A DNA stretch of 54,260 nt, taken from positions 1 through 54,260 of the forward strand of contig NZ_JARIDH010000040.1 of assembly GCF_029267215.1 (NCBI RefSeq), written 5' to 3'. A program made the translations under genes and the position numbers. This document shows positions 3,571-54,260 of the stretch, piece by piece (positions within the stretch are counted from its first letter, which is position 1; each line of letters starts with the position of its first letter). This stretch comes from Clostridium sp. (GTDB taxonomy: Bacteria; Bacillota; Clostridia; Clostridiales; Clostridiaceae). The notes beneath the pieces were generated by a model that made no database searches, was not told the DNA's origin, and saw nothing but the letters and a program-made list of their open reading frames with translations.

Positions 3571-3800
3571 GGTTATTTTTAATAATGTGTTGATTTTAGT
3601 TATCATTTCAGAAATACTTAATTGCGCAGAGAATCCCTATTAAATATTTGAGAATAATGTCTAGAGCTAAGAAATTTCCTTTGGTAAAACAACCACGCTT
3701 CTTAAGGTTACTATTATTCCATATTCAATTAAATTTTAAACTTTTTATTAAGAAGGTTATAAAGCTCCTTCTAAAATTAATACTAGTTTAAAACAAAACT
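3571..3800 (+). repeat. Dispersed palindromic element, copy A (full length, diverged)
   Basis: A 230-base non-coding element forming one long imperfect palindrome. Its outer ends (3571-3602 and about 3766-3800) are inverted repeats sharing the GTGTTGATTTTAG core. Its centre has a second inverted repeat, with ATTAAATATTTGAG-type and CCATATTCAATTAAA-type arms around about position 3690. It matches the copy at 54095 over nearly the whole readable length, including the ACTTAATTGCGCAGAGA block. Pairing mismatches show that it is an old copy. It sits between a terminator and the pheST promoter and carries no credible reading frame. Confidence 0.85.
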
Positions 3801-3908
3801 TTTTATTTAAGAGAATTCTTGGGTTTTTATATTATAAAGTTTTAAGTTTGAAAAGCTTTGTTTTATTTAGTAATAGTTAGTTTAAAAGGACAAAAAAGAA
3901 TAATACTC

Positions 3909-3937
3909 TTGATTATGCCTATTATTATATGTATAAT
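3909..3937 (+). promoter_or_regulatory. Promoter of the pheS-pheT T-box transcript
   Basis: TTGATT (3909-3914) and TATAAT (3932-3937) are separated by exactly 17 bases. This predicts a transcript start near 3944, immediately before the T-box leader. Confidence 0.8.
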
Positions 3938-3944
3938 ATATTTT

Positions 3945-4215
3945 GAATTAAATAGATAAAAACATTGAAAGAGAGAGTAGGTATAGAAGTTTCTTTTCAG
4001 GGAAAAGATGTCATAGACTGAGAGCATTTTAAGAAAAGCTATATTGAAGTTCACTCTGGAGTTCTAACTATGAAAAATAAAAGTAGTAGTTAGCGGCAAG
4101 GTCGTTAATTTAAAGTAAGTGAATGCTAAATTTTGTTTTAGTGTTAATTAGGGTGGTACCACGGATATAAATACCCCGTCCCTTATGTTTATAGGGATGG
4201 GGTTTATTTTATTTT
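3945..4215 (+). ncRNA. T-box riboswitch, tRNA-Phe specific
   Basis: This is a tRNA-sensing leader controlling pheS-pheT by antitermination. The conserved T-box (AGGGTGGTACCACGG, 4150-4164) includes the UGGU that pairs with an uncharged tRNA acceptor end bearing discriminator A. The competing terminator pairs CCCCGTCCCT (4174-4183) with AGGGATGGGG (4193-4202) and runs into a T tract. In stem I, the lower AGAG/CTCT helix and upper GTATAG/CTATAT helix frame an AGTA S-turn opposite TTC at 4050-4052, followed by A. UUC is a phenylalanine codon, which agrees with the downstream genes. The boundaries are approximate. Confidence 0.93.
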
Positions 4216-4486
4216 CTGAAAATATGGAAATAATTAAAAAGATTAATTAAATATTTAGTTATATAATGAGCTAGATTAAAATTATAAAGTTTTATTAAAT
4301 AGGTCTTATAAGATAAATTTTATGATTTAATGAATTCTTAAATAAATAGTGAGTTTTATAACATAAATTTTATACTTGTATCTTTATTAACTTACTTTTT
4401 ATTACTACTTTTTATGATTTAAGTAAGATTTTTATATTAAGATAAAATCTAGTATATTAAGTTATACTACCTACAAAGAAAGGAGA
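4216..4486 (+). other. AT-rich stretch between T-box terminator and pheS, no gene seen
   Basis: These roughly 270 bases hold no reading frame of substance and no second convincing promoter. The sequence is low in complexity, with loosely repeated ATAAATTTTAT words. It ends in the strong ribosome binding site AAAGGAG at 4479-4485. A leader this long after the T-box terminator is unusual. Confidence 0.6.
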
Positions 4487-4492
4487 ATGGAA

Positions 4493-52335: not shown

Positions 52336-52878
52336 ATGCATCTTAAGGCAAGTTTATTAGATGAAAATTCAATAAGAAGAGCACTTACAAGAGTTTCTCA
52401 TGAAATAATAGAGAAAAATAAAGGGGTAGAAAATATTGTTCTTGTTGGAATAAAAAGAAGAGGATACCCATTAGCAGAGAGAATTTCAAAGTTAATAGAG
52501 AAATTTGAGGGAGTTAAGGTTCCAGTTGCTAGTGTTGACATAACATTATATAGAGATGATTTAACTAATGTTAGTGATACGCCAAACTTAAATGATCCTA
52601 AAATTGATGTTGATGTAAAAGGAAAAAAAGTTATAATAGTTGATGATGTTTTATATACTTGTAGAACAGTGAGAGCGGCAATTGATGCTATTATGGATCA
52701 AGGAAGACCAGAATTCATACAATTGGCAGTTTTAGTTGATAGAGGGCATAAAGAACTACCAATAAGAGCTGATTATGTTGGAAAGAATATTCCTACATCA
52801 AAGGATGAGATAATAAAGGTTCAGATTAAAGAAATAGATGGAAATGATTCTGTTGAAATATACGAAAATGAAAACTAA
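52336..52878 (+). CDS. pyrR: PyrR: uracil phosphoribosyltransferase / pyr regulator
   Basis: A 180-residue PRTase-fold protein of the PyrR family. The PRPP motif is [20 protein letters not shown] near residue 95, and the [20 protein letters not shown] segment near 135 is distinctive for PyrR. The N-terminus has [16 protein letters not shown]. In Firmicutes PyrR binds pyr mRNA leaders when UMP is high and promotes attenuation, with weak uracil phosphoribosyltransferase activity. No pyr genes or binding loops lie in this window. The gene is 3 bases after rluD and 13 bases before the methyltransferase gene, so the three form one operon. Confidence 0.94.
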
Positions 52879-52891
52879 GGAGTAAAGTTTT

Positions 52892-54019
52892 ATGGATTAT
52901 AATTTAATAGCCACTGCAACATTTGGTTTAGAATCTATTGTTGCAAAGGAATTAAAAGCATTAGGATATGAAGACTTAAAAACTGAAAATGGAAGAGTTC
53001 ACTTTGAAGGAGATGAAATGGATATTGCTATTTCAAATCTTTGGCTTAGAACTGCTGATAGAGTTTTAATAAAGGTAGCTGAATTTAAGGCTGAAAGTTT
53101 TGAAGAATTATTTAATAATACTGTTGAGATTGATTGGAGTCAATATATACCTGTGGATGGTAAAATGCATGTTATAGGAAAGTCTGTTAAATCAACACTT
53201 CATAGTGTACCAGACTGTCAGTCAATAGTTAAAAAGGCTGTAGTTAAGAGTATGAGTAGAAGCTATGGAAAAGAGTGGTTTACAGAGGATGGTCCAGTTT
53301 ATAAAATAGAAGTTGGAATATTAAAAGATGTTGTTACTTTAACAATAGATACATCAGGAGAAGGGCTTCATAAAAGAGGGTATAGAGAGAATTCTGGTAA
53401 AGCTCCTCTTAAGGAAACATTAGCAGCAGCCATGGTTTTATTATCTAAGTGGAGAGGAGAAACTCCTTTAATAGACCCATGTTGTGGTTCAGCAACTATA
53501 TTAATAGAGGGGGCTATGATAGCTAGAAATATAGCACCAGGCTTACATAGAAAATTTGTTTCTGAAACATGGCCTTCAATAGATAAGGAAATATGGGACC
53601 AAGTTAGAGAGGGAGCAGAAAAATCAATAAAGAAAATTCCTTTAGATATAACTGGTTATGACATAGATGGATGGGTATTAAGTACAGCTAAAAATAACGT
53701 AAGAAAAGCAGGATTAACTGACTGTATAACTTTAGAAAAAAGAAATTTCTTTGATTTCTCAACTAAAAAGAAATATGGATATATGATTTCAAACCCTCCA
53801 TATGGTGAAAGAATAGGGGAAAAAGATGTAGTTTCTAAACTTAATAAACATTTTGGAGAAGTAAAAGAAAAGTTAGATACTTGGGATTTTAATATCTTAA
53901 CTGCTTGTCCAGATTTCCAAAAAGAGTTTGGTAGAAAAGCTACTAAAAATAGAAAGCTTTATAATGGTAGACTTTTATGCTACTACTATCAATACCTAGA
54001 TAATAACCTTAAAAAATAA
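52892..54019 (+). CDS. THUMP-domain rRNA guanine-N2 methyltransferase (RlmL N-terminal type)
   Basis: A 375-residue class I RNA methyltransferase with an N-terminal ferredoxin-like and THUMP region (about 1-160), starting YNLIATATFGLESIVAKELK. A Rossmann methyltransferase domain follows. The SAM site is DPCCGSATILIEGAMIARN near 191 and the catalytic motif IV is ISNPPYGERIG near 300. This matches the N-terminal half of RlmL (m2G2445 of 23S rRNA) and Bacillus YpsC-type single-domain proteins. The exact target is inferred. It ends the rluD-pyrR operon and is followed by a terminator. Confidence 0.9.
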   Translation: MDYNLIATATFGLESIVAKELKALGYEDLKTENGRVHFEGDEMDIAISNLWLRTADRVLIKVAEFKAESFEELFNNTVEIDWSQYIPVDGKMHVIGKSVKSTLHSVPDCQSIVKKAVVKSMSRSYGKEWFTEDGPVYKIEVGILKDVVTLTIDTSGEGLHKRGYRENSGKAPLKETLAAAMVLLSKWRGETPLIDPCCGSATILIEGAMIARNIAPGLHRKFVSETWPSIDKEIWDQVREGAEKSIKKIPLDITGYDIDGWVLSTAKNNVRKAGLTDCITLEKRNFFDFSTKKKYGYMISNPPYGERIGEKDVVSKLNKHFGEVKEKLDTWDFNILTACPDFQKEFGRKATKNRKLYNGRLLCYYYQYLDNNLKK

Positions 54020-54038
54020 GTTTTATAAAGTATATATT

Positions 54039-54082
54039 AAGTCCTATAAATAGACTCATAATCTGTTTATAGGACTTTTATA
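54039..54082 (+). terminator. Terminator after the THUMP methyltransferase gene
   Basis: AAGTCCTATAAA and TTTATAGGACTT form a perfect 12-bp stem with a 15-base loop, followed by TTATAATT. A palindromic repeat copy begins 13 bases later. Confidence 0.85.
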
Positions 54083-54094
54083 ATTAAAAAAATA

Positions 54095-54260
54095 GGTTCT
54101 GTTTAATAAAGTGTTGATTTTAGATAGCCCTTCAGACCTACTTAATTGCGCAGAGAGTTTCTATTGAATATTCCAGAATAATAGCTAAAGCGAAGAAACT
54201 CCCGTTGGTCAAACAACTTCGCTTCTTAACGCTATTATTCTTCCATATTCAATGAAACTC
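54095..54260 (+). repeat. Dispersed palindromic element, copy D (best preserved, cut by window end)
   Basis: Starts GGTTCTGTTTAATAAAGTG and TTGATTTTAGATAG, the outer end shared with copies A, B and C, then the ACTTAATTGCGCAGAGA block. An inner hairpin has arms at 54155-54195 and 54217-54260 that pair over about 40 bases, with a 21-base loop. The window stops exactly at the end of the right arm. By symmetry the element should continue about 55-60 bases and close with the inverted outer end. No reading frame is present. Confidence 0.88.

Follow-up and report, generated by a model that had tools for sequence, protein, structure and literature searches.

Related elements and the repeat family of the window

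Small mobile elements are usually seen as stripped-down transposons with nothing inside worth conserving. Here we describe a family of nested palindromes dispersed in intergenic DNA of a Clostridium sp. draft genome (assembly GCF_029267215.1; 2.79 Mb, 82 contigs, 95.9% complete), five of which lie in a stretch of 54,260 nt, contig C46 (NZ_JARIDH010000040.1), hereafter the window. In the reading that we favour, with a probability of roughly 0.75, the element has two layers, an IS1595-type miniature inverted-repeat transposable element (MITE) and a separate conserved hairpin module that acts as a folded single strand. In most copies of this source genome, the inside shows more conservation than the ends. 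REP/BIME elements, which go with RAYT transposases, also form many-copy extragenic hairpins, often at gene 3' ends; the present hairpin is much longer and has multiple loops. To our knowledge, and from the literature searched, no MITE has been described with an inner hairpin that covaries across genera on different ends.

The outer part resembles insertion sequences (ISs) of the IS1595 family (NF033547) in three genomes of the Clostridiaceae. The MITE end is matched, with at most two mismatches, by one end of these ISs, GGCTCTGTTTTAA plus a following TTAAGTGTTGATTATTG or ATAAGTGTTGATTATTG, and the 8-bp target-site duplications of the MITE agree with the IS1595 family; however, the displayed IS ends show no inner hairpin, and the transposase gene was not found in the source genome. 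In a study of IS6/IS26-like elements, the clostridial clades VII and VIII (ISCpe7, ISClte3 and ISCbo1) have longer transposases with an N-terminal zinc finger, and 8-bp duplications where these are recorded, while the ends of the shorter bacterial IS6/IS26 group have GG first and G seventh, as in the MITE (PMC6807381). Unlike these, the transposase of a relative scores as IS1595 by NCBIfam, and IS6 (IS240-type) parentage was rejected, no match to Pfam PF13610 (DDE_Tnp_IS240) being found in the source genome. QMITE2 of Coxiella is alike in its inverted ends, short duplications, lack of a gene and strong stem-loop (PMC10969869). Clop-1 of C. perfringens (93 bp) and Clot-1 of C. tetani (74 bp) are intergenic stem-loop repeat families, and the length of Clop-1 equals that of the short form of the present element, in a comparison by description only (PMC2267715).

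The outer element

A first-pass annotation of the window, made from the letters alone, had assigned five intergenic stretches to one dispersed family, and each is indeed a copy or a remnant (copies A to E, Table 1), the inner hairpin being carried by copies A and D and lacking in copy C. It had also predicted many more copies genome-wide. When the draft genome was searched with the 30-base end pattern GGYTCTGTTTTAANNNAGTGTTGATTTTAG, allowing at most two mismatches, 48 forward and 40 reverse matches were obtained, and the reversed pattern gave 0 + 0; a looser end core gave 104 + 98 matches versus 1 + 4 in the control. These 88 near-exact ends agree well with the prediction. All paired-end elements found in the fetched stretches of the source genome (n = 54) were then compared by length: 17 measure 88-104 bp, 20 measure 219-234 bp and 7 measure 288-316 bp, and 10 others range from 68 to 1569 bp, the longest of them being probably false pairings. 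The unit of about 225-230 nt proposed earlier thus describes the 219-234 bp class but neither the short nor the long one. Since 51 of the 54 elements are no longer than 316 bp, they hold no transposase gene inside.

The 8-bp flanks of the paired-end elements agree at 8/8 positions in 12 of 54 and at 7/8 or better in 23 of 54, versus 0.28% and 2.2%, respectively, of mismatched left-right pairs (n = 2,862). A hand-picked subset of 44 elements included 11 duplications at 8/8 and 22 at 7/8 or better. A more general search for inverted ends with 8-bp duplications, mostly in relatives, gave 6.0% of 84 copies versus 2.9% of 1,126 mismatched pairs, and is uninformative, the outer stems being long palindromes in their own right.

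The comparison set comprised 206 genomes of the family Clostridiaceae from 46 genera, source genome included, and the MITE end was found in 12 of them, the source genome again counted. With at most two mismatches, this end adjoins a transposase frame or its remnants in three relatives, G033, G050 and G072 (loci L113, L114 and L116). The G033 protein belongs to the IS1595 family (NCBIfam NF033547, E 3.5e-62; Pfam DDE_Tnp_IS1595, E 9.6e-13), and the G050 protein shows zinc-ribbon domains and a weak IS240 match, and nothing further. The inverted ends, the 8-bp duplications, the lack of a long open reading frame (ORF) and the presence of like ends next to an IS1595-family transposase in relatives together mark the outer element as non-autonomous and of IS1595 type, in other words as a MITE. 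The outer part thus behaves as the non-autonomous mobile element that had been suspected from the window.

Among seven genomes of the genus, a decayed IS1595-like relative with stops was detected in only one (G001:C4:20610-21359; L129-L131). In genome G168, several palindromes of about 50 bp (L119, L121, L123, L125, L127 and L128) are built from a pair of overlapping IS1595-type ends (GGCTATGTTTTAAATAAGTGTTGATTTT) and seem to be a minimal form.

Structure and covariation of the inner hairpin

The inner hairpin is described here on its structured strand, labelled T, which reads GUUAAG and is the minus strand in the window. It is about 133 nt long: a bulged stem of 17 pairs is followed by a 3x3 internal loop, a stem of 11 pairs, the GUUAA/A loop, about nine further pairs and a tip, which on T reads UGUUUGA-CC-NNN-GG-GAGUUU. 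Folding gave one architecture with differing stem letters, and some copies, e.g. L153, fail to fold in this way alone. Readings of the hairpin as attC-like, kink-turn or 6S/SRP-like were dropped, since their parts do not seem to fit. In a relative (L180, genome G143), the outer part of the hairpin is by eye a near-perfect palindrome with more than 60 bases per arm.

In a set of eight sequences, double changes were found in 27 of the 41 pairs, with a covariation of 0.490, whereas shuffles gave 0.182 and slid controls no more than 0.126. A covariance model, R1, was applied across the comparison set with at most 16 candidates scored per genome, a number reached by several genomes. From its matches at E <= 1e-7, 70 sequences (69 distinct, from 57 loci) were aligned, in which 37 of 41 pairs show double changes, 725 cells are double-change cells and 96.3% of cells are paired; the covariation rises to 0.717 (shuffles, 0.182; slid controls, at most 0.124), although the fitting of this alignment to the structure biases it in that direction, the first alignment having been a plain sequence alignment. 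Compensatory change, which the first-pass annotation had proposed to look for with a covariance model, is therefore strong in the inner hairpin and exceeds both kinds of control. Its alternative suggestion of a dispersed structured RNA fits the inner part, which behaves as a conserved structured element.

The internal loop GUUAA/A is near-invariant (G.96, U.99, U.81, A.97, A.97, and the opposite A 1.00), and the tip is conserved as well, with UG at.94/.97, A at.97 and GAGUUU at.80-1.00. In a passive palindrome, one would not expect the mismatches of GUUAA/A and of the tip to stay in place. The triplet in the tip behaves otherwise. Among 24 little-decayed copies of the source genome it differs in 57% of pairwise comparisons, versus 6% for the rest of the inner hairpin, i.e. 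about nine times as often, while its neighbours on either side are nearly invariant. Some pairs of copies have 0 differences at the 103 other inner positions yet one to three in the triplet; pairs with identical triplets also exist.

The hairpin and the MITE ends seem separable. Three hairpins of the source genome (L003:1227, L046:740 and L033:843) carry ends of a different look, GGCTGTATCAAAATA with its mate, and no duplication was seen at them; the short copies have ends without a hairpin. Among genomes with the hairpin, 38 of 71 have an IS1595 transposase (E 0.001), and among those without it, 74 of 135 (Fisher p 0.88); the presence of the hairpin is unrelated to that of the transposase. 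In most of 39 aligned copies the inner part is closer to the consensus than the outer part (exceptions are, for example, L014, L024 and L030), a comparison in which the insert-bearing copies are partly misaligned. This better-conserved inside makes several matters testable, namely a role of the hairpin at gene 3' ends, a protein that reads it, and the move of one fold between transposon ends.

Spread of the hairpin

With the hairpin of copy D as query, relatives at 72-76% identity were detected, full-length ones in G024 and one of almost full length in G016; a further 19 genomes of the family gave matches that were shorter and weaker. R1 matches at E <= 0.01 are present in 71 of the 206 genomes and 19 of the 46 genera. 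Both halves of the earlier proposal, mobile element and structured RNA, hold, but the two seem separable, and the hairpin, in 71 genomes, has a much wider spread than this MITE end, in 12.

The tip AAACTCCCNNNGGTCAAACA (17 fixed bases) was also scanned over 84,980 species, one genome each, and at least 113 stretches matched, where chance alone would give about 30 across the collection if base frequencies were equal. Judged by title, the 80 records among the matches listed include Bacteroidota, Campylobacterota, Halanaerobiales, Clostridia, Methylophaga, Desulfobacula and Nitrospirae. Among these listed matches, 67 of 81 tip places have the triplet TNC, and at least nine of ten flanking-stem pairs form at 43 of the 81 places (38 fall short), versus 26 of 405 mismatched flanks; five listed places with other triplets, inside ORFs (L256, L258, L270, L290 and L306), are probably due to chance. 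R1 matches 40 of the 80 listed loci at E 0.01, 35 of them over the tip. In 398 genomes drawn from the phylum, a wider pattern, AAACTCSCYNNGSTCAAACA, was matched in 15, source genome included, and its control in 0. Virus contigs gave 0 matches to the CCC-type tip restricted to TNC and seven to the GC-type tip; the rarity of the tip in virus contigs is only suggestive, since the collections differ in size. The plasmid and phage collections had no match to copy D.

At the Rfam gathering score, no match was obtained at the hairpin in the window, in seven element loci or in 16 further loci, the best sub-threshold match on the seven element loci being a miRNA model far below its cut-off. No description of the hairpin was recognised in the literature searched. 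Apparently, the hairpin represents a large, uncatalogued family of folded bacterial sequences. Such a structure, covarying, present in one in three family genomes, with a tip motif in several phyla but unmatched in Rfam, would mean that the catalogue of bacterial structured elements is incomplete.

Two other arrangements were observed among these loci. Locus L188 (G185:C1:417900-419600) contains three near-identical hairpin elements, head-to-tail, at a spacing of 236-237 bp. In Marivirga (L276, L298, L300 and L239), a CTAAA / TTCTTAACG internal-loop module is visible by eye with its sides swapped relative to the tip.

Strand and gene context

Among 77 distinct matches (of 101 rows, wrong-strand palindrome matches and repeats being excluded), the non-Watson-Crick stem cells read on T include 100 G.U and 21 A.C; without one conserved G.U pair the counts are 57 and 20. 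This is moderate evidence that T is the likelier structured strand, and only moderate because R1 itself favours T.

Genes beside the hairpins were taken as long ORFs called by script, without a gene finder. In a first set of relatives, 29 of 34 hairpins have the gene 3' of T ending towards them (two being source-genome copies, and some of the genes hundreds of bases away), and in a second set this is so at 32 of the 45 places with a gene called, out of 52; L164/L199 is one place counted in both sets. The corresponding figure in the source genome is 28 of 39 with a gene called, out of 43. On the other side of the hairpin, the genes of relatives show little bias (19 to 15), which disfavours a replication-strand bias as the cause of the orientation. 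Only 2 of the 33 source-genome elements with both neighbours called lie between divergent genes. In other phyla the 3'-end rule is weak: at 43 better-paired places listed, the upstream genes run sense in 24 and against in 15.

Where neighbouring hairpins are oppositely oriented, their T strands diverge in 13 of 13 pairs, as expected if each hairpin belongs to one of two convergent genes, although a single genome supplies several of these pairs, which could be duplicates of one original pair. In three divergent pairs that were checked, both hairpins face a gene end in L003, and only one does so in L163 and L169. Neighbouring hairpins have the same orientation in seven loci.

Origin and possible role

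According to the favoured reading, a DDE transposase acting in trans would have inserted the MITEs at AT-rich 8-bp targets, only seldom between divergent genes, and this mobilising transposase would now be absent from the draft or lost. The hairpin of about 133 nt would be a separate conserved module, not debris of a transposase gene, and would spread by riding any transposon ends that carry it. Its T strand would fold into stems of fixed length with fixed internal loops between them and the tip on top, and selection may act on the fold and on some loop letters, not on the stem letters. The folded single strand, either RNA or DNA while single-stranded, might be recognised by a protein or process at gene 3' ends, where it would act or be tolerated, possibly to the benefit of the element or of the host.

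Several observations weigh against this reading. In 31 of the 54 elements the duplications fall below 7/8, and no exact empty site was seen; at copy A, the sole copy compared, the sister genome G002 is without the whole intergenic stretch together with the element. Only one end was matched in L113 and L114, the far end being matched only in the broken G072/L116 copy (22/30 bases). The search for a transposase with matching ends, which had been suggested along with the first prediction, succeeded beside the ends in three relatives and failed in the source genome, where neither Pfam PF12762 and the L113 protein (E 1) nor NF033547 (E 0.001) revealed such a transposase; current mobility is therefore unproven. 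As to the hairpin, its unpaired columns overall average just 0.75 versus 0.70 for paired ones, and the 3x3 loops vary. The strand test rests on model-fitted alignments that lean towards T, and among source-genome hairpins flanked by genes of like direction, orientation is hardly biased (12 vs 9). Moreover, both kinds of outer end start with GGCT and may share a distant origin.

The main rival to a folded single strand at gene 3' ends is a mere mobile terminator or 3'-untranslated-region cassette, whose long stem after a stop codon would end or protect the transcript, so that insertions are kept. The median distance of 61 nt where the gene on the 3' side of T ends facing the hairpin (in relatives), the divergence of T in all 13 oppositely oriented pairs (again possibly copies of one pair), the scarcity of copies between divergent genes in the source genome and the gene-strand tip C(UNCG)G in many listed records, which we take to be a very stable RNA tetraloop, all speak for such a cassette. 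But a simple terminator needs neither a near-invariant internal loop nor one tip across several phyla, copies A and D already lie after a terminator or terminator-like hairpin, and the wobble pairs favour the opposite strand; in addition, both hairpins face a gene end in L003 alone among the three divergent pairs checked, and seven loci have neighbours in the same orientation. We regard the cassette as rather unlikely. It is also quite unlikely that the hairpin is no separate module but just the interior of a single old IS1595 MITE lineage with diverged ends. The copies of about 231 bp in the source genome do combine the inner with the outer part, and the ends of some relatives look related by eye (G024, GGCTATGTTTTAG...; G185, GGCTTTGTTAGA), but the three source-genome copies with different-looking ends, the short copies without a hairpin and the independence of hairpin and transposase tell otherwise.

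The compensatory changes could also arise at the DNA level, by template-switch correction of imperfect palindromes, with no selection on a folded product. Long near-palindromes are a known substrate for such correction, the elements are of this kind, and the relative at L180 has an almost perfect outer palindrome; yet template switching should erase the GUUAA/A and tip loops, both of which keep their place and most of their letters across genera while the adjoining stems change, and we consider this origin very unlikely. An assembly artefact, or chance repeats in AT-rich DNA, is next to impossible: the assembly is of draft quality and several contigs break off within the element (L001, L002, L016, L021 and L022), but this reading is already contradicted by the reversed-pattern control of 0, by duplications that differ from copy to copy and by related structures in 70 other genomes of the family. 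Beyond the favoured reading of a MITE with a separate hairpin module, we tentatively suggest, at somewhat less than even odds, that the hairpin forms an ancient class defined by the tip UGUUUGA-(CC-NNN-GG or GC-NNN-GC)-GAGUUU and the GUUAA/A loop. It would be a multi-copy chromosomal passenger of several phyla, rare in the scanned virus contigs, that moves from one kind of transposon end to another, unrelated one, comes to rest at gene 3' ends and is read by a conserved protein, with a tip triplet that is hypervariable and might be free of constraint in the lineage of the window.

Copies and other features in the window

The five copies share parts, though not all of those first listed: family membership holds for every copy, but the block ACTTAATTGCGCAGAGA is intact in A and D only, and copy C bears the left subterminal part in reverse complement. 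A point against the family is that copy A, folded as plus-strand RNA, is no stabler than its shuffles (z 0.60; 142 of 200 shuffles equally good); copy A is a decayed copy. The description of the elements as non-coding stands, no ORF of at least 100 aa overlapping A or D (ORFs that run off the ends are outside the listing).

Table 1. Positions of element copies and adjoining signals in the window
Feature	Position	Strand	Remarks
Copy A, complete element of ~230 bp, old/decayed	3571..3800	structured strand minus	R1 match 3613-3743 minus, E 2.5e-13
Target-site duplication of copy A, left TTTTATTA	3563..3570		right TTTTATTT at 3801-3808; 7/8 agreement
Apex triplet TTT of copy A	3680..3682		
Terminator-like hairpin and T-tract, immediately 5' of copy A	3530..3570	+	by eye; not listed by the consensus scan
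Copy B, left part of long sub-type (~100-bp extra insert), right half lost	22431..~22577	+	87% to L027 over 152 bp
Copy C, complete short form of 93 bp, without inner hairpin	28815..28907		duplication AAAATTTA/CAAATTTA, 7/8
Copy E, remnant of right end	~30091..30168	+	
Copy D, young element of ~231 bp, intact until the contig end cuts it	54095..54260	structured strand minus	R1 match 54137-54260 minus, E 1.3e-29
Apex triplet GTT of copy D	54204..54206		within motif AAACTCCCNNNGGTCAAACA (54196-54215)
Intrinsic terminator of the gene upstream of copy D, shortly 5' of the element	54039..54077	+	

A promoter scan gave eight sites in the region of copy A versus 3.9 (sd 2.1) in shuffles, and three in the region of copy D versus 1.5 (sd 1.3). 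Two Rfam matches in the window are unrelated to the element. One is a T-box leader (RF00230) at 3956-4186 (+), which by eye lies upstream of phenylalanyl-tRNA synthetase-like ORFs; the other is a selenocysteine tRNA gene at 36573-36669 (-).

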